Assembly: GCA_031255115.1 (NCBI GenBank)
Contig: JAIRTD010000244.1
Coordinates: 1 to 16,431, forward strand
Reading direction: 5' to 3'
Origin: Spirochaetaceae bacterium
Lineage (GTDB): Bacteria; Spirochaetota; Spirochaetia; Treponematales; Breznakiellaceae
DNA length: 16,431 nt
Positions 1 to 16,431 of the stretch are shown here, one piece after another (position 1 is the stretch's first letter; every line of letters starts with the position of its first letter). The notes under the pieces were generated by a model that worked only from the letters and a program-made list of their open reading frames with translations, was not told where the DNA came from and did not search any database. Both the position numbers and the translations under genes were made by a program.

Positions 1-2
1 TT

Positions 3-3022: not shown

Positions 3023-3051
3023 GCCCCGCGTGTCCGGGAGGACCGTAGCGT

Positions 3052-5169
3052 ATGCGGTATTTTAACGGCCGGCCCGTTGAGCTGCTTGCCCCGGCGGGAA
3101 ATTTTGCTATCTTCAAAGAGGTCATCAACGCCGGCTGCGACGCGGTGTACTGCGGTGGAAAGCGCTTTAATATGCGCCTCCACCGGAAGGATTTTAATTT
3201 TTCCGAAGCGGAACTTGCCGCCGCCCTTGAGCTTGCCCATGAGCAGGGTAAAAAAGTCTATATCACGGTAAACAATATGTACCGGGAAGAAGATCTCCCC
3301 CGGCTCGAAGAATACCTTGTGTTTCTTTCGGAGTTGAAGCCCGACGCCATACTGGTCCAGGATTTTGCCGTTCCGGCCCTGCTGCAAAAGCTCGGCCTTA
3401 CCCTGACCATGCACGCTTCGGTGATGATGAATGTCCACAACCTCGAAACCATAAAGCGCCTCGAAGAAAACGGCTTTAGCAGGGTGGTGCTTTCCAGGGA
3501 GCTTCCCCTTTCGTATGTACGCGCCGCCGCCGCCCTGAGCAATATTGAGTTTGAATATTTTGTCCACGGCGATATGTGCGTCGCCCACGGCGGCCAGTGC
3601 CTTTATTCGGGCATGATTTTTGGTTCCAGCTCCAATCAGGGCCGCTGCCTAAAACCCTGCCGCTGGGATTTTAAGATTGAACGCGGCGCGCGCCGTTATG
3701 CGACAAGCTTTCCTCTGGCGGTAAAGGATATGTACCTCTATGAGCATATTCCCGAACTAATCCACCACAGGGTTTCCTGCTTCAAGATTGAAGGAAGAAT
3801 GCGCGAAGCGGCGTACCTCGTTCCCCTGATAAACGCCTATGGCAGCGCCATAGACCGTTATATCGAAGACCCTCTTGCCTACGATCGCCGGAAGGACGCC
3901 GGGTTTCTCTATCAAAACCGTAAGCGCGATTTTTCTACCGCCTATGCCTTTGGGCGGCCCGGCCTTGCCAACATCAACCGCCGCATGGAAGGAACCGGCG
4001 CTTTTTATTCCACCGGAAAAGTGTTCAGCACGGCAAGCGAAGAGCCGGAACTTTCGGACGAAAAAATAGGGGCCATAAGAGAGACCCTGCGCCGCTTTCT
4101 TGAAAGCCGCGCCGGCCGGACCACAGACTGCCACAGGGCGCTGGAACTTGCCTGCAAGGTTCAGAATCTTGAACAGGCGCGCTATTGCGTTGAGCGGGGC
4201 GTTGATCATGTATACCTCTCAGGCGAAGTATTCCTGCCGGAAAAACCCTTTTCGACAGGGGCAATCAGGGAGCTGCTTGAACACCGGGGAAAAACCAAAA
4301 TCTGGCTCTGCCAGGGCCGCATGATGTTTGACCAGGAGCTTGAGGAATTTCTTGCGGCCCTTGAAAAACTCGACGGCCTCGACGGCCTTCTGGTTTCGAG
4401 CCTCGGGGGCCTCTCCGCGGCCAGCAATATCCGGAAAAATCTTGCCTGCAGGGGCGACTACGGCCTCAATATACAGAACAGCTTTTCCTGGCAGTACTAC
4501 CGGAACCACGGCCTTGAAGGGTTTACGATTTCGCCTGAAACAAAACCCGGCGATACCCTCGCCCTGCTTGACGCCCTGGCCTCAGGCGGAGCCCAAATTC
4601 CCGGCCAGGATGCCGCCGTAAACCAAAACGCCGCGGAACTCATTGTCTTTGGTTCTCCTACGGTGATGTACCTTGAACATGACCTTTTTGAAAACACCGA
4701 TGCTTGCGGCGCAAACGATAACGCCGGCGCTTGTAATGCAAACGATGACGCTATCGGCGATACCGCTATTGGTAACGCCAGTGATAACGCTATCGGCGAT
4801 ACCGCCATTGGTAACGCAAGCGATAAGGCCGGCGGGGCTGAGACCTTAAGCCTCATTGATGAAAAAGGGTTCCGCCACCCTGTGTTCAGGGATTCTTCGC
4901 GGGGCCTGGATTCCAGAGGCAGAAACCATGTGCTTCTTGTCAAAGACCTTTCGCTGCTTCCCTTTGCCGGGGAGCTTGTTTCCGCGGGGCTCAGGCGCGC
5001 ACGCGTTGAGGCTTCGTATCTGCCGGCGGAACAATTCAGGCGGGTTGTGGAACTCTGCCTCAGCGTCAGGGATCAGCCCGAAAACGCCGCCGCCCTGGTC
5101 AGGGATTTTACGCCGCCCCGGCTTGGCTTGAGCGCCGGGCCCTGGACTTTTACCGGAAGCGAGGAATAA
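3052..5169 (+). CDS. Peptidase U32 family protein (RlhA/TrhP-like RNA hydroxylation type)
   Basis: This 705-residue protein has the U32 fold: VELLAPAGNF at the N-terminus and the signature around EYFVHGDMCVAHGGQC. Four cysteines, C176, C183, C199 and C203, match the C-x6-C-x15-C-x3-C set that in RlhA and TrhP is linked to an Fe-S cluster and to hydroxylation of rRNA or tRNA. A role in RNA modification is therefore likelier than proteolysis, though U32 members are often labelled collagenase-like. The start at 3052 has GGAGG about ten bases upstream. Residues 1-300 form the conserved core and the rest is the long-form C-terminal region. From about residue 545 a low-complexity insert rich in Ala, Asn, Asp and Gly interrupts it, including two copies of AIGDTAIGNASDx. 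It overlaps the next gene by one base (taATG). Confidence 0.88.
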   Translation: MRYFNGRPVELLAPAGNFAIFKEVINAGCDAVYCGGKRFNMRLHRKDFNFSEAELAAALELAHEQGKKVYITVNNMYREEDLPRLEEYLVFLSELKPDAILVQDFAVPALLQKLGLTLTMHASVMMNVHNLETIKRLEENGFSRVVLSRELPLSYVRAAAALSNIEFEYFVHGDMCVAHGGQCLYSGMIFGSSSNQGRCLKPCRWDFKIERGARRYATSFPLAVKDMYLYEHIPELIHHRVSCFKIEGRMREAAYLVPLINAYGSAIDRYIEDPLAYDRRKDAGFLYQNRKRDFSTAYAFGRPGLANINRRMEGTGAFYSTGKVFSTASEEPELSDEKIGAIRETLRRFLESRAGRTTDCHRALELACKVQNLEQARYCVERGVDHVYLSGEVFLPEKPFSTGAIRELLEHRGKTKIWLCQGRMMFDQELEEFLAALEKLDGLDGLLVSSLGGLSAASNIRKNLACRGDYGLNIQNSFSWQYYRNHGLEGFTISPETKPGDTLALLDALASGGAQIPGQDAAVNQNAAELIVFGSPTVMYLEHDLFENTDACGANDNAGACNANDDAIGDTAIGNASDNAIGDTAIGNASDKAGGAETLSLIDEKGFRHPVFRDSSRGLDSRGRNHVLLVKDLSLLPFAGELVSAGLRRARVEASYLPAEQFRRVVELCLSVRDQPENAAALVRDFTPPRLGLSAGPWTFTGSEE
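4750..4827 (+). repeat. In-gene tandem repeat, 39-base unit, two copies
   Basis: Two near-identical 39-base units start at 4750 and 4789 and encode AIGDTAIGNASD plus one residue each. Degenerate relatives (ANDNAGACNAND) lie just upstream. The period is a multiple of three, so the U32 frame is kept. The insert lies in the poorly conserved C-terminal region. Confidence 0.85.
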
Positions 5170-6434
5170 TGGAAAGACAGGAAGCGCTTGCCCTGCGCAA
5201 GGATTATTTTATGCCCTGCGTCCAGCACTTTTACAAAGACCCGCCCCTTTTTGTCCGGGGGGACATGCAGTACCTGTACGACGAACAGGGAAAGAAGTAC
5301 CTTGATTTTTTTGCCGGTGTTTCGGTGATGAACTGCGGCCACTCCAATCCCTTTATCACCGAAAGGGTTGTCGCCCAGCTTGGCAAACTCCAGCACCTTA
5401 CCAATGTATACCTTACCGAACCGGTGCTGCGCCTTGCCGGGCGTCTGGCCCAGGTCATGCCGGGCGAACTGAGCAATTCGTTTTTCTGTAATTCAGGCTC
5501 CGAGGCCAACGAAGGCGCGCTGCTCCTGGCCCGAATTGTAACCGGAAAAAGAAAATTCATAGCCCTCAAAACAGGGCTCCACGGGAGAACCTACCTTACC
5601 ATGGCGGTTACCGGCATACCCATGTGGCGCGCGGACCCGTTTTTGCCCGATGATTTTTATTTTGCCAACAACGCCGAAGACGTTATCGCCTTCCTCGAAA
5701 AGGACAGGGACATAGCCGCCTTTATCTGCGAACCCCTCCAGGGGAACGGGGGCATAAGGCCTGTTCCGCCTGATTTTTTCAGGACAATAGCCGGACCCCT
5801 CAAGGCCCATGGGGCGCTTCTCATTGCCGACGAAGTGCAGTCAGGCTTTGCCCGTACCGGAAAGATGTTTGCCGTTGAACATTACGGCGTTGTCCCCGAC
5901 ATCATGACCATGAGCAAGGCCCTGGGAAACGGCATACCCATAGCGGCCTTTGCTTCGTCGCGGGAAACCGCCCTTCAATTTACACGGCCCTCGGCTTCAA
6001 CTTTGGGAGGAAATCCGGTCTCCGCAAGCGCGGCCCTCGCCGTTCTGGACTATATTGAAAAAGAAGAACTCTGCGCCAGAGCCGGGGAGCTTGGCGCGTA
6101 TCTCCGCTCCTGCCTTGAAAGCCTCGCGGCAAATTTTCCGGTGATAAAGGAAGTGCGCGGAAAAGGCCTCATGCTGGGCATGGAGCTTGCCCCTGACGCC
6201 GGGTCCGCCGGATCCACTGCTGCCGAAACCGCTGCCGGATCTACTGCCACTAGGTCAGCCGAAGCCGCCGCCCTGACCGACCATATTCTTGAAGAACTCA
6301 AGGAACGGGGCATCATACTCGGCAAGAACGGCCTTGACCGCAATGTGCTTGCCTTTCAACCTCCCCTGGTGATAAACCGCGGTGATATTGATTTTCTGGC
6401 CGGGAATTTAGAAACTATACTTAGGCGGTTGTAA
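5169..6434 (+). CDS. Class III PLP-dependent aminotransferase (AGXT2 / acetylornithine / GABA aminotransferase-like)
   Basis: This 421-residue fold-type I aminotransferase probably uses 2-oxoglutarate, pyruvate or glyoxylate as amino acceptor. Landmarks are MQYLYDEQGKKYLDFFAG near the N-terminus, the phosphate-binding CNSGSEANEGA, ICEPLQGNGG, the cofactor segment LLIADEVQSGFARTG with its conserved Asp, and the Schiff-base lysine K250 in MSKALGNGIP. STLGGNP and RGKGLMLG complete the class III pattern. The N-terminus resembles AGXT2-like enzymes more than ArgD, but substrate cannot be assigned from sequence. The start codon overlaps the U32 stop (taATG) with GAGGA just upstream, which suggests translational coupling. 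Near residues 340-362 there is an Ala/Ser/Thr/Gly-rich insert with a 27-base duplication, in the C-terminal domain between the conserved LMLGMEL strand and a following helix. Confidence 0.87.
   Translation: MERQEALALRKDYFMPCVQHFYKDPPLFVRGDMQYLYDEQGKKYLDFFAGVSVMNCGHSNPFITERVVAQLGKLQHLTNVYLTEPVLRLAGRLAQVMPGELSNSFFCNSGSEANEGALLLARIVTGKRKFIALKTGLHGRTYLTMAVTGIPMWRADPFLPDDFYFANNAEDVIAFLEKDRDIAAFICEPLQGNGGIRPVPPDFFRTIAGPLKAHGALLIADEVQSGFARTGKMFAVEHYGVVPDIMTMSKALGNGIPIAAFASSRETALQFTRPSASTLGGNPVSASAALAVLDYIEKEELCARAGELGAYLRSCLESLAANFPVIKEVRGKGLMLGMELAPDAGSAGSTAAETAAGSTATRSAEAAALTDHILEELKERGIILGKNGLDRNVLAFQPPLVINRGDIDFLAGNLETILRRL
6207..6260 (+). repeat. In-gene tandem repeat, 27-base period, two copies
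   Basis: GCCGGATCYACTGC occurs at 6207 and again at 6234, so two 27-base units encode AGSTAAETA and AGSTATRSA. The frame of the aminotransferase is preserved. The second unit has diverged toward its end. Confidence 0.65.
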
Positions 6435-6465
6435 GACCGGACTTGTTTATACACCATAGATTTGA

Positions 6466-6507
6466 GTTTGTCAGGTGTGGAATTAGTTAATTCCTTACCT
6501 GACAAAC
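6466..6507. repeat. Long inverted repeat (hairpin 1) in the 6435-6593 gap
   Basis: GTTTGTCAGGT (6466-6476) pairs perfectly with ACCTGACAAAC (6497-6507). Between them lies GGAATTAGTTAATTCC, itself a palindrome with seven-base arms. There is no T-run on either strand, so it is not a textbook intrinsic terminator. It could be an operator, an mRNA end structure or a remnant of a mobile repeat. Confidence 0.75.
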
Positions 6508-6510
6508 ACT

Positions 6511-6516
6511 TATAAT
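6511..6516 (+). promoter_or_regulatory. Candidate -10 box for the patatin-like gene
   Basis: TATAAT matches the sigma-70 -10 consensus perfectly and lies in an AT-rich gap 78 bases before the ATG. The hexamer 17 bases upstream (TAATTC, inside hairpin 1) is a poor -35. Transcription would start near 6523, so hairpin 2 would form close to the mRNA 5' end. Confidence 0.35.
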
Positions 6517-6520
6517 TGGA

Positions 6521-6551
6521 ATTCTCTGACAGTTTCAAATTGTCAGAGAAT
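6521..6551. repeat. Inverted repeat (hairpin 2) in the 6435-6593 gap
   Basis: ATTCTCTGACA (6521-6531) pairs perfectly with TGTCAGAGAAT (6541-6551) around a nine-base loop. It shares the core CTGACA with hairpin 1 and has no T-run. Confidence 0.75.
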
Positions 6552-6593
6552 AACAACCCGGTTAGTTGTAAAACCGTCTTTTAGGCGGATAGT

Positions 6594-7493
6594 ATGAGAA
6601 TAAAAAAAAATCTGAAATGGGCCCTGGTTCTCTCCGGAGGCGGGGCCAAAGGCTACGCCCACCTCGGTGTTCTTAATGTACTCGAAGACATGGGCGTTCC
6701 CCGGCCTTCCCTTATAGCCGGGACTTCCATGGGTTCCATCATAGGCGGCCTTTACGCCGCGGGCGTGAACCTTGAAAAGCTAAAGTCCTTTGTCCTCACG
6801 GAATTCGACATACTCCAGTACCTTGGTAAGACAAAGCGAAGGTACAAGGTGAACGGTCCTGTGGGCTGGGTGTTCCAGACCGGACAGATGTTGGGGAACC
6901 TGGCAACCAAAAGCGGCATGGACTCAGGGGAAGGCATACTCACCCTCCTTGACCGGTTCTGCGAAGGTAAAAAGATTGAAGAAGCCGAAATTCCCTTTCG
7001 CTGCAATGCGGTAGACCTTGTAAGCGGCAGGGAACTGGTTTTCAGGAGCGGCAGCATCGCCAGAGCGGCCAGGGCGTCAAGTTCCTTTCCCGCTTTCTTT
7101 GAACCCCTGGTCGAAGGCGGTATGCTCCTGGTGGACGGCGGCATCTGCAATAACCTGCCTGTGTACATTGCCCGGGACGAAGGCTTTAAACGCATACTTG
7201 CCGTGGATGTGGCCGGCTTTGAAAGCATTGCAGGCGAAAAATTTTCAAACGGCGCGCGTATCCTGTACCGCACTCTGGAAATCGCCATGCACTACAGCCA
7301 AATGGAAAAACGAAACCGGCCCTCGCTCCTCATCAACGCCGCCGATGATACTTCGCCCCTCTCCTTTGACAAGGCCGGCCACCTCATAGAGCTGGGAGAG
7401 AAAGCCGCCAGGGAAAGGCTTCGGGACCTGGAAAAGTTTTTTTCGGGGAGAAGGCTTTTTAAGCACAGGATGAAAGTCAGGGATATTCAGTAA
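6594..7493 (+). CDS. Patatin-like phospholipase / RssA-type serine hydrolase
   Basis: This 299-residue hydrolase has a Ser-Asp dyad. The oxyanion loop GGGAKG (residues 15-20) is followed by the nucleophile elbow GTSMG with Ser45, and later by the DGG motif with Asp181 (VDGGICNNLP). These are the complete signatures of bacterial patatins, which cleave acyl esters of phospholipids or related lipids. There is no signal peptide or membrane segment, so the enzyme is probably cytoplasmic or loosely attached to the inner face of the membrane. Its length fits the compact RssA-like subgroup. The ATG at 6594 has only a weak AGGCGG upstream. The gene is separated from the operon before it by the two inverted repeats and probably has its own promoter. 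It converges on groEL, with the groEL terminator between them. Confidence 0.85.
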   Translation: MRIKKNLKWALVLSGGGAKGYAHLGVLNVLEDMGVPRPSLIAGTSMGSIIGGLYAAGVNLEKLKSFVLTEFDILQYLGKTKRRYKVNGPVGWVFQTGQMLGNLATKSGMDSGEGILTLLDRFCEGKKIEEAEIPFRCNAVDLVSGRELVFRSGSIARAARASSSFPAFFEPLVEGGMLLVDGGICNNLPVYIARDEGFKRILAVDVAGFESIAGEKFSNGARILYRTLEIAMHYSQMEKRNRPSLLINAADDTSPLSFDKAGHLIELGEKAARERLRDLEKFFSGRRLFKHRMKVRDIQ

Positions 7494-7529
7494 AAAAAGG
7501 CTGCCGGAAAGTTTGCTTTCCAGGCAGCC
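7492..7529 (-). terminator. Rho-independent terminator of groEL
   Basis: On the minus strand a strong stem (GGCTGCC and GGAAAG pairing with CTTTCC and GGCAGCC, one bulged base, four-base loop) is followed by seven T residues (7498-7492). No T-run follows on the plus strand, so it acts for groEL rather than for the patatin-like gene. Confidence 0.88.
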
Positions 7530-7544
7530 CTGTTGCTATGCGGC

Positions 7545-9224
<1,680 letters not shown>

Positions 9225-9363
9225 TTACCGGAACCTGGGCGAAAAGGAATTCCATCCCTTGCCCGCGGATAACCGGTATTGTATGAAATTGATTGTTGCC
9301 CTAATGAAAAGGGACTTGTATATAAGATACTAAATTGAGACCTCAACGGCAATAGGGAAAATA

Positions 9364-9372
9364 TGGTATAGT
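9364..9372 (+). promoter_or_regulatory. Candidate extended -10 promoter for RNase HI
   Basis: TGG TATAGT fits an extended -10 element (TGn plus hexamer). The same ATATGGTATA string recurs before the lipoprotein gene at 10473. Transcription would begin near 9379, so the ATG at 9380 would be at or next to the mRNA 5' end. No good -35 and no ribosome binding site are visible. Confidence 0.45.
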
Positions 9373-9379
9373 GAATTTT

Positions 9380-9928
9380 ATGGAAATTGATATCTATACC
9401 GATGGAGGCTGCTCCGGAAACCCCGGCCCCGGCGGCTGGGCCTTCGTTATACTGGAGAAAATGGACTTTTCTGGGGAGAAAAATGGGGACAGAGCCCAAG
9501 ATTCCGGGGACAGAGCTCAGAGTTTTGGGGACAGAGCTCAAAAAATCCTGGCCCAGGAGTGGGGCGCCGAGGCCAATACCACCAATAACCGCATGGAACT
9601 GAGCGCCGCCGTTGCCGCCCTCTCTTCCTTGCAGGCAGGACCCAAACCGGAAAAAGTGAGGCTTTTTACTGATTCCCAATACCTGCAAAAGGGCATAAGC
9701 CAGTGGATTAGTGGATGGAAAAAAAACGGCTGGCGGACCGCCTCCAAAGACCCGGTAAAAAACAGGGATTTATGGGAGAAATTGGACCTTTTGAATGTTT
9801 CTATGGCTGTTGAATGGCACTGGGTAAGAGGACACGATGGAAACACCTATAACGAACTCTGCGATCAGATGACCCAGGAAGCAATTTTGTCAGTTACAGA
9901 CGGAAAACGCCCTTCAGAGCGTTCCTGA
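9380..9928 (+). CDS. rnhA: Ribonuclease HI with a GDRAQ-repeat insertion
   Basis: RNase HI cuts the RNA strand of RNA-DNA hybrids and so removes R-loops and primers. All active-site residues are present: D8 (YTDGG), E73 (NNRMEL), D98 (FTDSQY), H152 (WVRGHDGN) and D162 (ELCDQ). Family members are about 150 residues; this one is 182 because the loop after the first strand carries three GDRAQ units (residues 36-54, seven-residue period) made by three copies of the 13-base motif found all over this half of the window. The insertion replaces a surface hairpin and leaves the catalytic core intact. The start could be GTG at 9371, but that codon lies in the candidate -10 box, so ATG at 9380 is preferred. 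The gene is divergent from groEL. Confidence 0.88.
   Translation: MEIDIYTDGGCSGNPGPGGWAFVILEKMDFSGEKNGDRAQDSGDRAQSFGDRAQKILAQEWGAEANTTNNRMELSAAVAALSSLQAGPKPEKVRLFTDSQYLQKGISQWISGWKKNGWRTASKDPVKNRDLWEKLDLLNVSMAVEWHWVRGHDGNTYNELCDQMTQEAILSVTDGKRPSERS
9485..9538 (+). repeat. GGGGACAGAGCT repeat array inside RNase HI (3 copies, 21-base period)
   Basis: Copies begin at 9485 (ends in CC instead of TT), 9506 and 9527. The 21-base period equals seven codons, so each copy is read as GDRAQ. Confidence 0.9.
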
Positions 9929-9958
9929 AAAGCGGTTGTCGCCCGCCCGGCGCTTTTT
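9928..9958. terminator. Possible bidirectional terminator between RNase HI and the PC4-like gene
   Basis: AAAAGCG (9928-9934) pairs with CGCTTTT (9951-9957) and is flanked by A and T runs on the two sides, between convergent genes. The loop is large, so the call is tentative. Confidence 0.35.
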
Positions 9959-9967
9959 GGGACTAAA

Positions 9968-9979
9968 AGCTCTGTCCCC
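9968..9979 (-). repeat. Single GGGGACAGAGCT motif, minus orientation
   Basis: AGCTCTGTCCCC on the plus strand, between the convergent RNase HI and PC4-like genes. It is sense-oriented relative to the PC4-like transcript. Confidence 0.85.
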
Positions 9980-10003
9980 AATCCCAACGGCCGCCCAAAG
10001 CGC

Positions 10004-10249
10004 TCATTCCTGCCCCTGGTCAGGCTCACCCGCCAGGGCGCCGGAAAGGAGACAGGCCAGTTTTTGCGCTTCGTCCCTGGTCAGGGTTATCCCCTTACCG
10101 GCCTTTTCATGCCCCGGCGCCCAGTCCCGTACATCAAATTTCGGCTCCCGGCCGTTCCAGGAAATCCAGTTAAGTTCTTTTTTCCAACTGTTGTGTTCTT
10201 CGGAAAGCACGCCGTAGTGTTTCAATATATCGAAGCTAATCTCCGCCAT
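10004..10249 (-). CDS. PC4/YdbC-like single-stranded DNA-binding protein
   Basis: This 81-residue protein matches the YdbC-like branch of the PC4 (p15) family: an N-terminal FDILKHYGVLSE strand, then KELNWISWNGREPKFDVRDW and a C-terminal helix GITLTRDEAQKLACLL. PC4 proteins form dimers with a curved beta sheet that grips single-stranded DNA. Bacterial YdbC members bind ssDNA, but their cellular role is not settled. AAGGAG lies five bases upstream of the ATG at 10249. A GTG at 10252 is in frame but would be only two bases from that site, so the ATG is chosen. The gene converges on RNase HI. Directly upstream lie a candidate promoter and an array of the 13-base motif. Confidence 0.8.
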   Translation of the reverse strand: MAEISFDILKHYGVLSEEHNSWKKELNWISWNGREPKFDVRDWAPGHEKAGKGITLTRDEAQKLACLLSGALAGEPDQGQE

Positions 10250-10294
10250 CACAACTCCTTATCGCTGTTTTGTCCGTTCGCCCGGCAGCCGGGA

Positions 10295-10324
10295 TGTATA
10301 ACCAGTCTACTGGTTTTTTGTCTG
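10295..10324 (-). promoter_or_regulatory. Candidate promoter of the PC4-like gene
   Basis: On the minus strand CAGACA (10324-10319) and TATACA (10300-10295) are 18 bases apart. The motif array begins one base beyond the -35 box. The gap 10250-10554 (305 bases) holds this promoter, a small plus-strand hairpin, the four-copy motif array and the lipoprotein promoter. Confidence 0.35.
10300..10319 (+). terminator. Short candidate terminator hairpin
   Basis: AACCAG, loop TCTA, CTGGTT, then four more T residues (six in all, 10314-10319). The stem is only six pairs with three GC, so it is weak. It would shield the lipoprotein gene from plus-strand read-through. A second small perfect stem, CCCGG-CAG-CCGGG, lies at 10281-10293. 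Confidence 0.4.
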
Positions 10325-10325
10325 G

Positions 10326-10391
10326 GGGGACAGAGCTTGTCGAGGGGGACAGAGCTTACTGGGGGACAGAGCTTGCCGGAGGGACAGAGCT
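10326..10391 (+). repeat. GGGGACAGAGCTT array, four copies, intergenic
   Basis: Copies begin at 10326, 10345, 10362 and 10380 (the last has A for the first G). Spacings are 19, 17 and 18 bases, not codon multiples, as expected outside a gene. Confidence 0.9.
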
Positions 10392-10469
10392 CAAAAGTAC
10401 ACAACTAGGGGCAATCCCATTAAAAAATCTTGAGAAAATCGCAAATTAGTACCTTTTTTTTCTGGAATA

Positions 10470-10478
10470 TGGTATAAT
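10470..10478 (+). promoter_or_regulatory. Extended -10 promoter of the lipoprotein-LysM operon
   Basis: TGG TATAAT is a perfect extended -10 element, preceded by a T-rich tract (10454-10461). The string ATATGGTATA is identical to that before RNase HI. The predicted leader is about 70 bases. Confidence 0.6.
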
Positions 10479-10554
10479 TTAAATTGTAATTGAGCCAGTT
10501 CCGGAAATTTGATATATTGGAACAATTTTAAGTGTGATTGTCAGGAGTATAATT

Positions 10555-11664
10555 ATGACGAAAAAGCAGTTCTTTGGATTTTTGGGGATACTTATGCTGG
10601 TGCTACTAACGCTGGCCTGTAAATCCCAGCCGCCGGAAACCGAGCCAGAAAGCTTGGTTGCTCCCCCGGAAACGACCGCCCCTGTTGAGGAAGTAAGCCA
10701 GGCGTTGCTCAACAGCCTTAATGATGCCCGCAGCCGGGCTGAAGCGGCCCGCCAGGAGGCCCAGAGCGTAAACGGACCGGTTTATTTTCCCCAGGAATGG
10801 GAGCAGGCCGACGGCAGCTTTACCCGGACCGGGTCCAGCGTCAATACCGGCAATGCCCGGTCAGTACAGGATGCGATAGCTTCCTACAATTCTCTTACAA
10901 CGGCTTTTGAGGATATTGTCCGCCGTTCCCTGCCCCTTTTTGCAGAAGCCAAGCAGGAAGAAGTGTTTATCGCGCGCCAGGCCGCGATTGACGCAGGCGC
11001 CTTTGAGTTTTCTCCCGGCCGGTTTTACATTGCCGACGAAAAAGGCGAAGAAGTCAGCAGGCGGATTGAGGCGGAGGATTACCGGGACGCCATTGACGCT
11101 GCCGAAGTCGCGCTGAACTACTATACCAGCCTCAAGTTGGGCGCCGACGCCTATATGCTGCGGGGGGCCATTCTGGATGATGATCTGGCACATTATGACC
11201 AGCGGAATTTTGATTTGGCCGAAGAAAGCGGCCTCAAAGCCCTCAACGCCTATGACGACGGGGATATTGCGGCGGTAATGGTGGTAGTCGAGGAAGCCTT
11301 AAACCGGTACACCCAGGTGTGGAAAACCGCCTGGCGCAGCATTGCCTCAGAACGCCGGGATATCGCAAGCGTGGAACGCCGCGCTGCCCTGAATGTAAAG
11401 GCCAATGTGGCGGTCAAGGATGAATATGAATCAGCGGAATCCATATACAGTCAGGCCGGGACAAAATTTCAATCTGAAGAATTCGAAGATGCCGCCGAGT
11501 TGTATACCCGTTCAAGTTCCCTGTTTACCGCGGCATGGGAAAACGCCGAGTATAAGCGACAGATAGCTGATTATGCAATACGGGCGGCCGAGCAAAAAGT
11601 CGCGGAAAGCGATCAAACTGCCCGGGAAGCCGAGCTTATTCTTGAAGAAGGAGAAGAAGAATGA
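10555..11664 (+). CDS. Putative lipoprotein with alpha-helical (TPR-like) repeats
   Basis: This 369-residue protein starts with a lipoprotein-type signal peptide: basic KK, a hydrophobic stretch, then LTLAC with Cys22. The lipobox is relaxed (Thr at -3), as is common in spirochetes. After a Pro/Glu-rich linker the protein is almost entirely charged helices. Related blocks recur about every 75-90 residues (a helix beginning ARSRAEAARQEA or YESAESIYSQA, then an A-x3-Y-x3-A-x2-F/Y helix), which resembles degenerate TPR-like repeats. It is probably anchored in a membrane on the periplasmic or outer face and may scaffold envelope proteins; no enzyme motif is seen. AGGAG lies seven bases before the ATG at 10555. 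An in-frame GTG at 10534 would include that site and is rejected. The stop overlaps the next start (ATGA). Confidence 0.75.
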   Translation: MTKKQFFGFLGILMLVLLTLACKSQPPETEPESLVAPPETTAPVEEVSQALLNSLNDARSRAEAARQEAQSVNGPVYFPQEWEQADGSFTRTGSSVNTGNARSVQDAIASYNSLTTAFEDIVRRSLPLFAEAKQEEVFIARQAAIDAGAFEFSPGRFYIADEKGEEVSRRIEAEDYRDAIDAAEVALNYYTSLKLGADAYMLRGAILDDDLAHYDQRNFDLAEESGLKALNAYDDGDIAAVMVVVEEALNRYTQVWKTAWRSIASERRDIASVERRAALNVKANVAVKDEYESAESIYSQAGTKFQSEEFEDAAELYTRSSSLFTAAWENAEYKRQIADYAIRAAEQKVAESDQTAREAELILEEGEEE

Positions 11665-12560
11665 AAAAAAATATCGTAGTATTTCTGGTGTTGATCTGTT
11701 TTTCGGGCCTTGCCGGACTTGGCGCCCAGGGCATTGAACTCCCTGAACCCCGTTTTACGCCGTCCCTGGAGGCGGCTCCGCTGGCAGTTACCACCCTTCC
11801 CGATTCTGTGGATGGTCAGTGGTCTGAACTCTGGTCCGTTAACCCCGGTGATGCCGCGCAGCCTATGGATTTTTCTTCGGTTGCCGTTCTTGCGGCCGTG
11901 GGCTCTTCCGATATGCCGATTCCCAGGGATGTACGGAATAACCAGTATTTTATGGAAAGCGTCCGTCTGCGGGACCTGGCCAAAGAGGCCTTTGATTATG
12001 GCGATTATGACAGCTCGGCAGATTATGCCATAGAGTCCCAGCGCTATGCCCGGCTTTCCGATGAATATGTGGCATTACAGCTTAAAATCAGGGAAACCGA
12101 TACAGCCATAGGCAAAGCCCGTGACCGCATTGCCTGGGCGGTTTCCCGGGGCATAGACAAGACCTATCCCAGCCAGTTTGGAGAAGCCCAGGGGTCCTAT
12201 ACCGAAGCGGTTTCCCTGCGGGAAGAAGAACAATGGGATCCTGCCATTGCGGCGGCCCAGAAAGTCCTGTACATACTTGCCGATTCCAGTGAACGGCTTC
12301 CTCTTCCGGCCCAGTACACAGTTCGTACCTGGCGTACCGAACGGGACTGCCTCTGGAATATAGCGGGATATTCATGGGTATACGCCGATCCCTTCCAGTG
12401 GAAGAGACTGTATGAGGCCAACCGGGCCAAAATGCCCGAACCCAATAACCCTGATCTGATCCACCCCGGTACTATTCTGGATATTCCCAGCATACGGGGC
12501 GAAGTACGGCAGGGAATGTGGCAGGCAGGCCGCTCCTACAATCCCCTTCCTCCCAGATAA
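11661..12560 (+). CDS. Secreted protein with C-terminal LysM-like domain
   Basis: This 299-residue protein has a signal peptide of about 23 residues (MKKNIVVFLVLICF ... GLGAQ). Residues 100-210 are charged helices related in style to the upstream lipoprotein. Residues 218-278 form a LysM-like domain: QYTVRTW, CLWNIAGYSWVYADP, the tryptophan-asparagine segment WKRLYEAN, and the closing PDLIHPGTILDIPS. LysM binds peptidoglycan or other GlcNAc polymers, so the protein probably sits in the periplasm on the cell wall. It overlaps the lipoprotein stop by four bases (ATGA), with AAGGAG inside that gene's end, so the two are likely translated together and may form one envelope complex. Its 3' end overlaps the convergent Nudix gene by 25 bases. 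Confidence 0.78.
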   Translation: MKKNIVVFLVLICFSGLAGLGAQGIELPEPRFTPSLEAAPLAVTTLPDSVDGQWSELWSVNPGDAAQPMDFSSVAVLAAVGSSDMPIPRDVRNNQYFMESVRLRDLAKEAFDYGDYDSSADYAIESQRYARLSDEYVALQLKIRETDTAIGKARDRIAWAVSRGIDKTYPSQFGEAQGSYTEAVSLREEEQWDPAIAAAQKVLYILADSSERLPLPAQYTVRTWRTERDCLWNIAGYSWVYADPFQWKRLYEANRAKMPEPNNPDLIHPGTILDIPSIRGEVRQGMWQAGRSYNPLPPR

Positions 12561-13105
12561 AAAGAAAGAGCCGAGGCCATGAGGGCATGCACATAAGGCG
12601 GCTGCCCTATGGCCCGGATCACCTCTTCTTCCGGCGTCAGTTCAATTTCAACAAATTCGTCCTCATCGAGGCTTTGTTTTCCTGAATCAACAAGCTCTGT
12701 CCCCATAAAGAAGTGCACCCTGTTGGACATAATCGCCGGATTGGGACTTAGTTCCCCCAGTTTCTGGATTTTCCCCGCCGAATATCCGGTTTCTTCCAGC
12801 AGTTCGCGGCGGGCGCCGGCAAGCGGATCTTCTCCCCGTTCAATCACCCCGCCGGGAAACTCAAGGCTTATGGTCTGGGTTCCATGACGCCACTGGCGTA
12901 CCATGACAAAGTATTTTCTTCCGTCCTTTTCCAAAAGCGGTATAATTATGGCCCAATCCGCCGCGTCAATGACCGAAAAATGAGCTCTGTCCCCACCGGG
13001 AGAGAGGCTTACTATGTCCCGGACAGAAAAAACAGGACACGAAAAGACCTTTTTCTGGTTTTGGACAGACCAGACAAGTTTGTTTTCATTCATGGTAATC
13101 AGCAT
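12536..13105 (-). CDS. Nudix hydrolase, ADP-ribose pyrophosphatase-like
   Basis: A protein of about 189 residues with a complete Nudix box at residues 86-108 (GVIERGE ... RRELLEETGY) preceded by LEFPG, the arrangement of the ADP-ribose pyrophosphatase group, which hydrolyses nucleoside diphosphate derivatives with Mg2+. SNRVHFFMGTEL and LDEDEFVEIELTPEE also fit that group. Two copies of the 13-base motif lie within the gene and are read as GDRA (residues 38-41) and GTEL (135-138). The frame stays open to 13210, but that extension is just the motif array and lies over a predicted promoter, so the start is placed at ATG 13105; ATG 13093 (MNENKL) is equally possible because AAGGG sits one base from the first and 13 from the second. 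Overlaps the LysM gene by 25 bases. Confidence 0.85.
   Translation of the reverse strand: MLITMNENKLVWSVQNQKKVFSCPVFSVRDIVSLSPGGDRAHFSVIDAADWAIIIPLLEKDGRKYFVMVRQWRHGTQTISLEFPGGVIERGEDPLAGARRELLEETGYSAGKIQKLGELSPNPAIMSNRVHFFMGTELVDSGKQSLDEDEFVEIELTPEEEVIRAIGQPPYVHALMASALSFYLGGRGL
12692..12704 (-). repeat. GGGGACAGAGCTT motif inside the Nudix gene
   Basis: A perfect copy in the coding sense of the gene, read as GTEL just after the HFFM strand. Confidence 0.9.
12983..12994 (-). repeat. GGGGACAGAGCT motif inside the Nudix gene
   Basis: A 12-base copy in the coding sense, read as GDRA in a different frame from the copy at 12692. Confidence 0.88.
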
Positions 13106-13127
13106 ACCCTTTTTGCGGCCCTTGAGA

Positions 13128-13180
13128 AAGCTCTGTCCCCGTTGAAGAAGCTCTGTCCCCGTTGAAGAAGCTCTGTCCCC
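13128..13180 (-). repeat. GGGGACAGAGCTT array, three copies, Nudix leader
   Basis: Perfect copies end at 13180, 13160 and 13140 on the minus strand with an exact 20-base period (linker CTTCAAC). Twenty is not a codon multiple, so a read-through would use three frames (GDRA, GTEL, GQS). This marks the region as untranslated leader. Confidence 0.92.
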
Positions 13181-13203
13181 AGAAAAACCCTGCCATAAAT
13201 ATT

Positions 13204-13232
13204 TTGACAAGCCCTTTAAGGCAGGTTATGCT
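13204..13232 (+). promoter_or_regulatory. Sigma-70 promoter of the cytidylate-kinase-like gene
   Basis: TTGACA (13204-13209), a 17-base spacer, and TATGCT (13227-13232). The -35 is a perfect match. Transcription would start near 13239, giving a leader of about 170 bases that is filled by the three hairpin repeats. The gap 13106-13410 (305 bases) holds the motif array, this promoter and those repeats. Confidence 0.7.
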
Positions 13233-13244
13233 TAAATTAGCAAC

Positions 13245-13408
13245 GCTGTTCGGTTGAACATGGCGGCTCGCGCCGCCTAAAATGAGGTTATCAGCGTTGC
13301 TGTTCGGTTGGACACGGCGGCTCGCGCCGCCAAAAGAGAGGTTATCAGCAACGCTAAGCATTGCTGTTCGGTTGAACATGGCGGCTCGCGCCGCCGAAAG
13401 TGAGGTTA
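13245..13408 (+). repeat. Three copies of a REP-like two-hairpin element in a 5' leader
   Basis: Each copy begins GCTGTTCGGTT (13245, 13299, 13363), forms a small stem GTTC-GGTT-GAAC, then GGCGGC-TCGC-GCCGCC (13262-13277, 13316-13331, 13380-13395), and ends with GAGGTTA. On the minus strand the loop is GCGA, a GNRA tetraloop. Copy 2 has G for A twice in the small stem region yet keeps pairing by wobble. Linkers AGCAACGCT (13239, 13347) and AGCGTTGCT (13293) are reverse complements. Confidence 0.88.
13402..13405 (+). promoter_or_regulatory. Ribosome binding site supplied by the third hairpin repeat
   Basis: GAGG lies five bases before GTG at 13411 and decides that start. It is the conserved GAGGTTA tail of the repeat element, so the repeat family provides the ribosome binding site. 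Confidence 0.65.
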
Positions 13409-13410
13409 TT

Positions 13411-14232
13411 GTGGCGATTATAACTATATCCCGTGAATTGGCGGCTCTGGGGGATGAGACGATTAATGAAACGGCAAAAACCCTGAATTATCGCGTTATT
13501 GGCAAGGGTGTACTGGAAGAGCGTATAAAGGCCTGTGGTTTTGCCCTGGAAAAACTGGAAAAGTATGATGAACGGCGGCCTTCGTTTTTCGCGTCCCTTT
13601 CCCAGGACCGGGATGATTACCTCCATTATCTGCGCACCGCCATGCTTGCCGAGGCTGCCGACGGAAACTGCATATTCATAGGCCGGGGGGCGAATATTGT
13701 GTTCAGGAATACGCCGGGGATGATTTCAGTGTATCTGGTAAGTCCTGAAGATATACGTCTTAAACGGGTAAAAAGTTATTTTCACTGTGATGACAAAAGG
13801 GCCAAACAAATCATAAACCAGAGCGACTATGACCGGAAGGGTTTTCACCGCTATTTTTACGATGCCGACTGGACTGATTCTGGAAATTATCACCTTACCA
13901 TCAATACCGGCTATTTGCATCCGTCTTTTGCCGCGGAACTCATTAAATCAGCGGTAAAGCGGCTGGGAACTCCTGAGACCGAGGGGCTTGGCAAGATACG
14001 CCTCCAGGAAATGACCCTGGCCGAGCAGCTCATTCATCATATTATTTATGAAAAATCCATAGCCGTTCATTTTTTGGAAGCGGCAGTTTCAGGCGCCACC
14101 GCTACCCTTTATGGTGTTGCCAATTCCCAGGCTCTGGCCGAAGCGGCAATAGCGGCGGCAAAGGAACTTCCCCAGGTTTCGCAGGTTCAGTCCGAAATAC
14201 AGGTAGTGCAGGAGTACAACATCATGCCCTGA
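13411..14232 (+). CDS. Cytidylate-kinase-like protein with a C-terminal BON-like domain
   Basis: This 273-residue protein resembles the Cytidylate_kin2 family: AIITISREL at the N-terminus, then a helical lid region, CIFIGRGANIVF and the basic RLKRVKSYF segment. The phosphate-binding loop is not canonical: where relatives have a glycine-rich GSGG stretch this one has AALGDE, so kinase activity is doubtful. From about residue 205 a second domain follows, with the pattern of a BON domain (ATLYGVANSQALAEAA, then QVSQVQSEIQVV), a fold found in membrane-associated and periplasmic proteins. GTG at 13411 is chosen because of the GAGG five bases upstream; the frame is open back to 13282, but that part is the hairpin repeat. 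An ATG at 13378, inside the third repeat, is the alternative. The leader suggests post-transcriptional control. Confidence 0.72.
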   Translation: MAIITISRELAALGDETINETAKTLNYRVIGKGVLEERIKACGFALEKLEKYDERRPSFFASLSQDRDDYLHYLRTAMLAEAADGNCIFIGRGANIVFRNTPGMISVYLVSPEDIRLKRVKSYFHCDDKRAKQIINQSDYDRKGFHRYFYDADWTDSGNYHLTINTGYLHPSFAAELIKSAVKRLGTPETEGLGKIRLQEMTLAEQLIHHIIYEKSIAVHFLEAAVSGATATLYGVANSQALAEAAIAAAKELPQVSQVQSEIQVVQEYNIMP

Positions 14233-14259
14233 CAATATGGCCGGTTTTGTATGCGCTCC

Positions 14260-14288
14260 CTGACAAAGCTGGGTTTTATGGATATTAT
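14260..14288 (+). promoter_or_regulatory. Candidate promoter of the M32 carboxypeptidase gene
   Basis: CTGACA (14260-14265), a 17-base spacer and TATTAT (14283-14288), five of six matches in each box. Transcription would start about 14295, only three bases before the ATG at 14298, and no ribosome binding site is seen, so the mRNA may be leaderless. Confidence 0.45.
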
Positions 14289-14297
14289 TATACTAAT

Positions 14298-15818
14298 ATG
14301 AATCATAGAGAAGCGTTGGAAGCGCTGCGCCGTCTGGACCGGGAATACCGGCATCTCTGCCATGTTCTTGCCCTTCTTCAATGGGATCAGGAGACCTGCC
14401 TCCCCAAAGACGGGGTCATGGATCGTTCGGAACAATTGGCTCTGCTTGGGGGCATGGCCCATGAACAGCTTATTGACCCCAAGGTGGGAAAGCACCTTGC
14501 CGAAGCCGGCGTAACTGAGAAAAATCCCCAGGGCGATGAACGGTTTTCCGGTGAAGAACGCGATTTTTTACGGGTCTTTAGCAAGGAATATTACAAAGCA
14601 ATTAAACTTCCCCCTGATTTTGTCCGCTATGCGGCCAAGGCCGAGGGCCTTTCCCAGGCAGCCTGGGTGGAGGCCCGGCAAAAGAGCGATTTTTCGTTTT
14701 TTATGCCCCATCTTTCCACAATGGTGGAAATAGCAAAAAAGCGGACCCAATACTGGGGTTATGGGGACAGAGCTTATGACGGCCTGCTTGATATATACGA
14801 ACCGGGCATGACCGAACAGGGAATACAGGAGATTTTTGCCCCCCTTGCGGTCAAACTTAAAGATCTGGCGGAACGCATTACCGCAAAAGGGATCGAACCG
14901 TCAATTTTTTCCGCTTCGCGCTACGATTCCGGCATTCAGCACCAGTTCAGCCTGAAACTGATGGACTATTTGGGCTTTGACACAAAGCGGGGCAGGCTGG
15001 ATACCAGCGCCCATCCCTTTACCACAACCCTGGGAACCCGTGATGTGCGTATTACCACTCGTTATATAGAAGAAAATCCGCTTTCGGGCATTTTTTCGAC
15101 TATCCACGAAATGGGCCATGCTTTTTATGAACTTGGCCTGCCCGACAATCTCAGGGGAAGCTGCCTTGGCGACGGCAGTTCCATGGGCATCCACGAGTCC
15201 CAATCAAGGCTCTGGGAGAATGTCATAGGCCGCAGCAGGGCCTTCTGGACAGGGCTTTTTCCGCTTTTGGGCTCGTATTTCCCCGGCCAGCTTGGTTCAA
15301 TTTCTCTGGACGCCTTTATCCGTGAGGTAAACCGCGTAGCTCTGTCCCCCATACGCATAGAAGCCGATGAACTTAGTTACAGCCTCCACATTATCCTTCG
15401 TTTTGAATTAGAGCGGCGGCTTTTTTCCGGGAAACTCTCAGTAGAAGAGCTGCCCCGGGCCTGGAATGCCCTTATGAAGGAATACTTCAATATTGAAGTA
15501 GAGAACGACCGGGAAGGCGTATTGCAGGATGTTCACTGGTCTATGGGCTCTTTCGGCTATTTTCCCAGTTATGCCCTGGGGAATCTCTATGGACTACAAT
15601 TGTGGAAAAAACTCTGCGCGGATATTCCCCAGGCTGATTCCTGTATTGCCCAGGGGAAATTCGAAAAAATCCGCGCCTGGCTCAACGAAACTGTATATGT
15701 GTGGGGCAGGAGGCTTTGCCCGGAAGCATTACTGATCAAGGCCACCGGACAAAAACTCAAGGCGGATTCCTTTATGGAATATATCGAAACAAAATACACC
15801 GCGATTTATGGGCTTTGA
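14298..15818 (+). CDS. M32 family metallocarboxypeptidase (carboxypeptidase Taq type)
   Basis: This 506-residue zinc or cobalt carboxypeptidase removes C-terminal residues from peptides in the cytoplasm. The metal site is complete: HEMGH (H270, E271, H274) and GIHESQSR with E300 as the third ligand. Family landmarks LLQWDQETCLP, YDGLLDIYEPGMT, DTSAHPFT, RIEADELSYSLHIILRFELE and the late ALGNLYGLQL are all present, and the length is normal. The frame is open from TTG 14247, but the family N-terminus begins near MNHREALEALRRL, so ATG 14298 is preferred. Two copies of the 13-base motif fall at conserved places: one in sense, read as GDRA (residues 156-159) before YDGLLD, and one in antisense, read as ALSP before IRIEADE. 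The gene overlaps the next start by 11 bases. Confidence 0.93.
   Translation: MNHREALEALRRLDREYRHLCHVLALLQWDQETCLPKDGVMDRSEQLALLGGMAHEQLIDPKVGKHLAEAGVTEKNPQGDERFSGEERDFLRVFSKEYYKAIKLPPDFVRYAAKAEGLSQAAWVEARQKSDFSFFMPHLSTMVEIAKKRTQYWGYGDRAYDGLLDIYEPGMTEQGIQEIFAPLAVKLKDLAERITAKGIEPSIFSASRYDSGIQHQFSLKLMDYLGFDTKRGRLDTSAHPFTTTLGTRDVRITTRYIEENPLSGIFSTIHEMGHAFYELGLPDNLRGSCLGDGSSMGIHESQSRLWENVIGRSRAFWTGLFPLLGSYFPGQLGSISLDAFIREVNRVALSPIRIEADELSYSLHIILRFELERRLFSGKLSVEELPRAWNALMKEYFNIEVENDREGVLQDVHWSMGSFGYFPSYALGNLYGLQLWKKLCADIPQADSCIAQGKFEKIRAWLNETVYVWGRRLCPEALLIKATGQKLKADSFMEYIETKYTAIYGL
14763..14775 (+). repeat. GGGGACAGAGCTT motif inside the M32 gene
   Basis: A perfect 13-base copy in the coding sense, read as GDRAY within the conserved segment before the EPGMT motif. 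Confidence 0.9.
15338..15349 (-). repeat. GGGGACAGAGCT motif, antisense, inside the M32 gene
   Basis: A 12-base copy, and the only copy inside a gene that runs against the coding strand. It is read as ALSP immediately before IRIEADE. Confidence 0.8.
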
Positions 15819-16431
15819 GAATTTTGCCCTGGCCCGGGATAGCGGGTACCTGGCCTTTGCGCTGACAGGCGTTGCCCTGGGACTGTTTGCGCGGCTTATC
15901 CCCTTTTCCAGGGTCTCCCAAAAAAGGAAAAACCACATCATCCCGGCGCTGTTTCTGATTTTTTCAGCGCTTATTGTGCTTCTTTCCCTGTCTATTATTC
16001 ATTCCCGGGGAAAAATCTTCCTGGTAAAGGATTTTTATTTTGTTGGATTATTCATTCTGCTTCTTGGCGGCCTTGCCAGCCGCTTTTTCCGTATAGCCGG
16101 TTTTCCCCTCCTGGTCCTGGCAGGGGTTTTTACGGTTTTAAGCGGCTTTTTCTTGCGGCCCCTGGTCAACATTGACAGCCCCGAAACCGTTCTGGCCACG
16201 ATCAGCAGTGTTCCTGATTCAGACGCTTCGGGGGACAGAGCTTATACCGTCCAAATCTCCAAAAGGTGGGGTGGGGCCAGTACATATTCTTTTGACCTGG
16301 GCCCCCAAGTGGGGACAGAGCTCCAAACGGGGACAGAGCTTCAGACAGGGACAGAGCTTCAAGCGGGGACAGAGCTTCAAGCGGGGACAGAGCTTCAAGC
16401 GGGGACAGAGCTTCAAGCGGGGACAGAGCTT
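15808..16431 (+). CDS. Four-helix membrane protein with a GTELQA repeat tail, partial (3' end missing)
   Basis: I do not recognise this family. The 208 visible residues start at ATG 15808, overlapping the M32 stop by 11 bases; no ribosome binding site is seen, so coupled translation is likely. Four hydrophobic segments are predicted by eye at residues 13-33, 44-64, 76-94 and 98-116, with the basic loop SRVSQKRKN between the first two. A soluble part follows (VNIDSPETVLATISSVPDSD), then GDRAY at 142-146 from a single copy of the 13-base motif, a short segment KRWGGASTYSFDLGPQ, and from residue 169 a tandem tail of GTELQT and GTELQA units that continues to the window edge. The tail is entirely the 13-base motif at an 18-base period. 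Whether the gene ends soon after or continues into a further domain cannot be seen. Confidence 0.7.
   Translation, partial: MGFENFALARDSGYLAFALTGVALGLFARLIPFSRVSQKRKNHIIPALFLIFSALIVLLSLSIIHSRGKIFLVKDFYFVGLFILLLGGLASRFFRIAGFPLLVLAGVFTVLSGFFLRPLVNIDSPETVLATISSVPDSDASGDRAYTVQISKRWGGASTYSFDLGPQVGTELQTGTELQTGTELQAGTELQAGTELQAGTELQAGTEL
16231..16243 (+). repeat. GGGGACAGAGCTT motif inside the membrane protein gene
   Basis: A perfect single copy 80 bases before the tandem array, read as GDRA, a different frame from the array copies. Confidence 0.9.
16311..16431 (+). repeat. GGGGACAGAGCTT tandem array, at least seven copies, 18-base period, running off the window
   Basis: Copies begin at 16311, 16329, 16347 (A for the first G), 16365, 16383, 16401 and 16419, all exactly 18 bases apart (six codons). 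The last four units have the identical linker CAAGC, while the first units have diverged, which suggests recent growth at the 3' side. All are read as GTEL. Confidence 0.95.

Follow-up and report, generated by a model that had tools for sequence, protein, structure and literature searches.

Repetitive extragenic palindromic (REP) elements, REPtrons and REPINs flank the genes of REP-associated tyrosine transposases (RAYTs, also TnpA-REP; HUH/Y1 enzymes) such as rayT of E. coli. TnpA-REP is described as cleaving single-stranded DNA at a C|T dinucleotide, with retention of the 5′ link and release of a 3′-OH that might serve to prime replication or to attack a second strand (PMC8266576). In a survey in which hairpin REPs were sought, most tnpA-REP genes of five subclasses had canonical REPs at a distance of up to 1 kb, and other subclasses are described as being without REPs (Quentin et al., 2018; PMC6006769). 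A simple REP pattern applied to 50 kb around E. coli rayT gave six matches within 1 kb, two near 3.5 kb and none further away. Here, a 16,431-nucleotide stretch of DNA from a Spirochaetaceae bacterium (assembly GCA_031255115.1, contig JAIRTD010000244.1; hereafter the window) is analyzed in which a 12-base word, R-GGGACAGAGC-T, recurs within and between genes. The word probably belongs to a RAYT system, a reading that is given a probability of ~0.6, in which it is a minimal unit that serves both as cognate site and as product of the enzyme, and spreads locally from the RAYT gene, which in several relatives resides beside groEL.

The resemblance to REP systems lies in the enzyme family, in the repeats that flank the enzyme gene and in the C-T end of the word, which is the known cut dinucleotide. 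In contrast to REPs, the word is 12 bp long and is not self-complementary, hence forming no hairpin, it lacks a GT[AG]G foot and there is no signal upstream of the A or G that precedes the core. It also is found mostly in genes, is haloed over tens of kb around the enzyme gene and in most cases is accompanied by no change in length. DNA uptake sequences (DUS and USS) of the Neisseriaceae and Pasteurellaceae likewise are short, non-palindromic, genic words with dialects that are better kept than their surroundings. However, uptake sequences are evenly spread, whereas the word is haloed around one enzyme gene, occurs in tens of copies and follows the clade of a nuclease: instead of genome-wide spread in hundreds of copies, a 4.06-Mb genome harbors 47, of which 34 are within 320 kb of the RAYT gene. 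For a second word, GGTGTCAGA, the count in one genome is as high as 842. In the literature searched, on RAYTs, on spirochetes, on two termite Treponema names and on CTGTCCCC, no report of such a word was listed, and the papers listed that contain GGGGACAG looked unrelated. The system is viewed as a variant of the RAYT/REP kind.

A 12-base word linked to one RAYT clade

The region of the window from 9485 to 16431 contains 23 matches to the 13-base motif GGGGACAGAGCTT at up to two mismatches, 16 on the forward and seven on the reverse strand, in agreement with the count that had been made by eye in the original prediction. Fifteen of the copies are without mismatch, six have one and two have two. 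The start positions listed originally also were accurate except for three on the minus strand that were displaced by one base (correctly 9967, 12982 and 15337), and the proposed spacing of 17–21 bp holds for direct neighbors in the window. All 23 copies possess the exact core GGGACAGAGC, which is absent from positions 1–9484. When up to three mismatches were permitted, the whole window yielded 30 matches compared with 5.3 ± 2.5 in 200 dinucleotide shuffles, none of which reached 30. The genome to which the window belongs (G000; 1.92 Mb in 323 contigs, 74% complete) includes the core 93 times (61 on the plus and 32 on the minus strand) versus three occurrences of the reversed word, so that the assertion of a frequency far above chance is upheld at both scales. 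As arrays of the word are located at, or run off, the ends of several contigs of this assembly including that of the window, the 93 copies probably are an undercount.

The form of the word was defined more broadly with 395 copies from 30 loci (484 kb) that were hand-picked for carrying it. Immediately 5′ of the core, A or G is found in 393 of these copies and, across all loci, in 486 of 498; the base immediately 3′ is T in 328 of the 395. No flanking or linker position outside R-core-T exceeds 0.15 bit and therefore the unit is a sharp 12-mer without conserved flanks that, as noted originally, is not palindromic. In the same loci, the 395 exact matches compare with 2.3 expected, one-mismatch variants number 152 versus 39 expected, and two-mismatch variants number 500 versus 558 expected: a cloud of near-matches was sought as a sign of slow decay and none was apparent beyond one mismatch. 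The last base of the core is changed in 54 of the 152 one-mismatch variants, and some loci have their own variant at this position. Of the 395 copies, 286 fall in mechanically called open reading frames (ORFs), which account for 88% of the DNA, and these occupy either strand and every one of the six frames. Pairs of neighbors ≤60 bp apart comprise 81 direct, seven convergent and four divergent ones, and the spacing is divisible by three for 55 of the 81 direct pairs.

The enzymes encoded beside the word in relatives are, judged by profile comparison, RAYTs. Five of five proteins tested passed the cut-off of the NCBIfam RAYT equivalog model NF047646. The same five were below the cut-off of the IS200 model, which sets them apart from IS200/IS605 elements with which they share a Y1 HUH enzyme. 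The RAYT profile recovered the structure of E. coli TnpA-REP (4er8) at 3.5e-11, and the His-x-His residues H59 and H61, together with Y119, are invariant in all 17 rows of the alignment. Residue Y119 presumably is the catalytic tyrosine. Viral contigs that were scanned with the RAYT alignment revealed no relative.

Seventy-seven RAYTs, comprising 70 of the best 80 of 215 relatives plus seven others, were arranged in a tree that has two groups. Under a word-label criterion that was chosen after seeing the data, the GGGACAGAG label was assigned to 40 of the 51 rows of the first group (clade A) and to none of the 26 rows of the second, and the GTGTCAGA or GTGCCAGA labels to 12 rows of the second group and to none of the first. 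Twenty-five rows, of which 11 belong to clade A and 14 to the other group, were without a word by this criterion. The most enriched 9-mer fell within RGGGACAGAGCT at 33 of the 51 clade-A loci. Dialects are evident inside the first group, for example with AGTA, AGGA and AGA endings. Overall the word is linked to one RAYT clade, and a change of clade brings a change of word.

Further words were noted at individual loci. A locus with a clade-A RAYT at 12617–13099 (L111, genome G145) is rich in GGGCCAGAGGC-type words rather than in the common word. A locus with a RAYT at 8012–8512 (L199) includes 41 copies of GGTGTCAGA in 18.5 kb; its genome, G196, which is placed in the second group of the tree, has 842 copies of this far more prolific RAYT-linked word in 1.8 Mb versus eight of the reversed word.

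The density of copies was profiled at 46 of the 51 clade-A loci. Copies per 10 kb decreased from 19.6 within 500 bp of the RAYT gene to 5.3–7.9 at 0.5–6 kb, 3.8 at 6–8 kb and 2.5 at 8–10 kb, compared with 0 to 0.2 for the reversed word at the same loci, and at least one copy was within 500 bp of the gene at 36 of the 46. Relative to the RAYT gene, 139 upstream copies are in plus and 110 in minus orientation, with 95 of each downstream. In the 4.06-Mb genome, which is a single contig, 14 of 47 copies and six of 26 clusters are within 10 kb of the clade-A RAYT gene, compared with 0.13 clusters expected (binomial p 3e-9; 0.2% of random centers reach six), and within 320 kb there are 34 copies and also 19 clusters, a cluster count that 1.1% of random centers reach. 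Two RAYT genes outside clade A in this genome have no copies within 10 kb. In two other genomes, 21 of 37 copies (G172; 0.24 expected) and four of 10 copies (G009) are within 10 kb of a RAYT gene. A contig of RA.bin110 with two RAYT genes and 58 copies (C1, the only contig used among the 100 of 137 places listed) displayed outward densities of 5.0, 8.0, 3.5, 2.0, 1.1, 0.6 and finally, beyond 80 kb, 0.05 clusters per 10 kb, which is an ~100-fold drop from the interval ≤5 kb to that >80 kb. Four stretches without a RAYT gene (L135, L138, L148 and L150) showed no enrichment of the word. Overall, the word forms a density halo that is centered on the RAYT gene, and the parallel with RAYTs that had been offered tentatively in the original prediction is supported in relatives both by this crowding and by the profile assignments.

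The same association emerged among 195 genomes of the family, 28 of which have at least 10 copies of GGGGACAGAGC. A Y1 transposase is present in 22 of these 28 word-rich genomes, but in 119 of the 195 overall, and thus the general Y1 family tells little about linkage to the word. A full clade-A RAYT, defined by E up to 1e-76 with the 17-protein alignment and with the cut set after seeing the data, is present in 16 genomes, of which 15 are word-rich, versus 13 of the 179 others (p 6e-14). By genus, the proportions that are word-rich are 12 of 13 with a clade-A RAYT versus four of 43 (p 4e-8). The link between RAYT and word is well supported.

The window and its counterpart in a relative

The locus of genome G089 is alignable with the window from groEL to position 16364. 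The copies in the window, with their left neighbor, are as follows.

7545–9191, minus strand: groEL, the left neighbor of the word cluster.
9485–9539, plus strand: three copies 21 bp apart, in frame inside the RNase H gene (ORF 9371–9928), coding GDRAQDSGDRAQSFGDRAQ ahead of conserved TTNNRMEL; G089 has a counterpart of the third only.
9967–9979, minus strand: one copy in the gap that separates the RNase H gene from a PC4-domain gene; G089 has a counterpart.
10326–10392, plus strand: four intergenic copies 17–19 bp apart with differing linkers; G089 has counterparts of the first and last, not of the middle two.
12692–12704, minus strand: copy in the NUDIX hydrolase gene, sense, common to G089; G172 has other sequence of equal length.
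12982–12994, minus strand: second copy in the NUDIX gene, sense, common to G089.
13128–13180, minus strand: 20-bp tandem of three, either within the 5′ end of the NUDIX gene or immediately before it, as its start codon is uncertain; G089 has a counterpart of the first only.
14763–14775, plus strand: copy in the M32 carboxypeptidase gene, sense, common to G089; aligned to the G089 site, L144 carries a different sequence without gaps.
15337–15349, minus strand: copy antisense to the M32 gene, common to G089; at the G089 site, L148 has no word and the motif columns are ungapped.
16231–16243, plus strand: single copy inside an ORF that runs from 15811 to the contig end, common to G089.
16306–16431, plus strand: seven 18-bp units up to the contig edge, coding repeated GTELQ; G089 has three aligned copies (the last uncertain) and one degenerate copy.

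For 13 of the 23 copies in the window, the alignment places a G089 copy at the same columns; the assignment is uncertain for the last of the 13, which belongs to the array at the contig edge. The remaining 10 all are within ~55 columns of a copy that has a G089 counterpart, as tandem growth would give. The RNase H site carries no copies in G108, one in G001, one plus degenerate copies in G089 and three in the window, a series that shows insertion and growth in this loop of the protein. The original suggestion of a unit that is copied together with a short linker thus applies to local tandem growth (13128–13180 and 16306–16431) and does not extend to the single copies, which have no common linker. 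Copy positions are not the same in all relatives and are not explained by conserved protein sequence, and counts are far above the Markov expectation; neither of the two refuting outcomes named in the original prediction was obtained.

A RAYT gene is located past the 3′ end of groEL at seven of the 19 loci compared (those of G089, G091, G001, G072, G073, G172 and G161). In the window, the place beyond groEL is occupied by a patatin-like gene (6594–7493). The window is read as half of a halo whose RAYT gene was lost, has moved or was cut off or left unassembled. A search of the genome of the window for a RAYT, as the original prediction advised, found none in the 74% complete assembly. A Y1 match in this genome (contig C1 of G000, profile positions 1–36) was the first candidate for a RAYT beyond the contig edge and was discarded because that contig lacks GGGGACAG and shows no BLAST similarity to the remaining loci under comparison, and because the genome has no A1 match. 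The copies do not constitute a CRISPR array as they are single, dispersed and on both strands; a Pfam scan of 14 ORFs gave no cas family, and no match to an Rfam RNA was obtained at gathering scores.

Additional repeats are present in the window. Three 53-bp units with a GC-rich palindrome (GGCGGCTCGCGCCGCC) precede a cytidylate-kinase-like gene at 13239–13409; the unit is absent from G089 at this location, and the genome contains seven instances of it when up to three mismatches are allowed. A 39-bp tandem repeat is within a peptidase U32 gene (4733–4826), and an inverted repeat of 20 bp, with 90% complementarity and a gap of 2 nt, is 3′ of an aminotransferase gene (6466–6507) where it possibly acts as a terminator.

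Upkeep of copies and competing explanations

The fate of sites was followed in 125 anchored site-relative pairs in which the two flanks were mapped apart. The word is present in 96 pairs and absent from 29. Among the latter, the site is of equal length in 26, shorter by at least nine bases in two and longer in one. The 26 equal-length empty sites have a mean of 4.08 core differences compared with 2.59 expected from the flanks, an excess for which the combined p is 1.5e-4 if the pairs are independent, which they are not fully; the three closest pairs have two, one and three core differences, near expectation. A BLAST-based set comprised 196 of 262 pairs (identity 68–85%, flank ≥0.6) at 119 sites, the pairs again not being independent. 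In this set, the core is intact in 128 pairs, one base off in four and at ≤8/10 in 64, with flanks that are 73.5% identical on average. The paucity of intermediates is unlike neutral decay, which would leave more. Of the 64 pairs without the word, 46 show no net change in length and seven have at least nine extra bases at the occupied site. Thus, in a modest and partly biased set, the word seems to overwrite more than it inserts.

The strongest competitor to the RAYT system proposed here is a drive on point mutations, in which the word arises by mutation of near-matches and alleles that carry it are then favored in recombination or repair as a consequence of RAYT nicking at exact copies, much as is proposed for uptake sequences. 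This scheme, which is judged unlikely, would account for the equal-length sites, for intact copies in diverged flanks and for a sharp optimum without an excess of two-mismatch variants, and the three closest pairs indeed are only 1–3 core bases apart. However, the difference between 4.08 and 2.59 is beyond what single steps give, and tandem growth and the RNase H insertion are left unexplained by this drive alone. The RNase H series and the RAYT linkage itself are consistent with classical REP- or REPIN-like transposition, in which the word would be a small mobile element that inserts close to the RAYT gene. Direct spacings that are multiples of three (55 of 81) are as expected of in-frame insertions in genes, and the extra bases in seven of the 64 wordless pairs point in the same direction. 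Nevertheless, there is no palindrome and nothing is conserved past 12 bp, 26 of 29 empty sites are of equal length and 286 of 395 copies reside in ORFs, which renders transposition of this kind improbable.

It is slightly more improbable again that each copy is a functional binding site, for regulation or chromosome organization, that is under ordinary selection with the RAYT gene as a mere neighbor. Intact 10/10 cores in 128 of 196 pairs amid flanks of 73.5% identity, and word-rich genomes without a detected RAYT, are compatible with such sites, but copies are on both strands and in all six ORF frames, and both the halo and the clade-specific words track the RAYT. Chance, slippage or an assembly artefact is scarcely credible: two arrays in the window resemble slippage, but the counts far exceed both the Markov expectation and the reversed-word controls in many genomes, including one assembled as the single 4.06-Mb contig.

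Several observations weigh against the preferred reading of a RAYT system that overwrites DNA near its own gene. Neither a RAYT remnant beyond groEL in the window nor, in the 74% complete assembly of its genome, an A1 match to a clade RAYT was found. Thirteen word-rich genomes are without a full clade-A RAYT, of which six have no A1 match (G000, G090, G097, G146, G178 and G184), four have a weak one and three a partial one; among the first six, G146 has 33 copies at 92% completeness. Conversely, G113 possesses a full RAYT that is 65% identical to clade-A rows and has zero copies of GGGGACAGAGC. Eleven of the 51 clade-A rows are without a word by the label criterion, and at 18 the top 9-mer is outside the word, several of these 9-mers being close variants and others nothing alike. 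One RAYT outside clade A in the 4.06-Mb genome has five copies within 20 kb. Both sets of site comparisons lean to equal length because few insertions of 12 or 13 bases are tolerated in genes and intergenic sites rarely are alignable, so that equal-length sites are favored by selection in genes and by alignability, and only five of the 26 empty sites singly exceed the flank-based prediction.

Proposed mechanism and significance

The last base of the core is C, and a T comes next in 328 of 395 copies, a pattern that would be consistent with C|T cutting. As TnpA-REP cuts at C|T and the word ends in C-T, local nicking followed by copying of the freed word nearby is proposed. Acting mostly near its own gene or fork, the enzyme would cut single-stranded DNA between the terminal C and T of the word. 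The freed 3′ end with the word would pair to partly matching single-stranded DNA in the vicinity and then be extended, an event that would overwrite ~12 bases, and decayed copies would be rewritten or lost.

A more general proposition, which is tentative and somewhat doubtful at present, is that spirochete RAYTs are sequence-writing enzymes. A clade-specific word would be written in place, base for base, near the enzyme gene and also into coding DNA, and decayed copies would be rewritten. The word would thereby form a self-maintaining genomic drive, and distance to the enzyme gene would determine how far it extends. With the repeat stripped to 12 bp, a word that depends on the clade and a halo that depends on distance, donor, acceptor and reach become testable. 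If the proposition is true, a domesticated nuclease would alter neighboring protein-coding genes in place.

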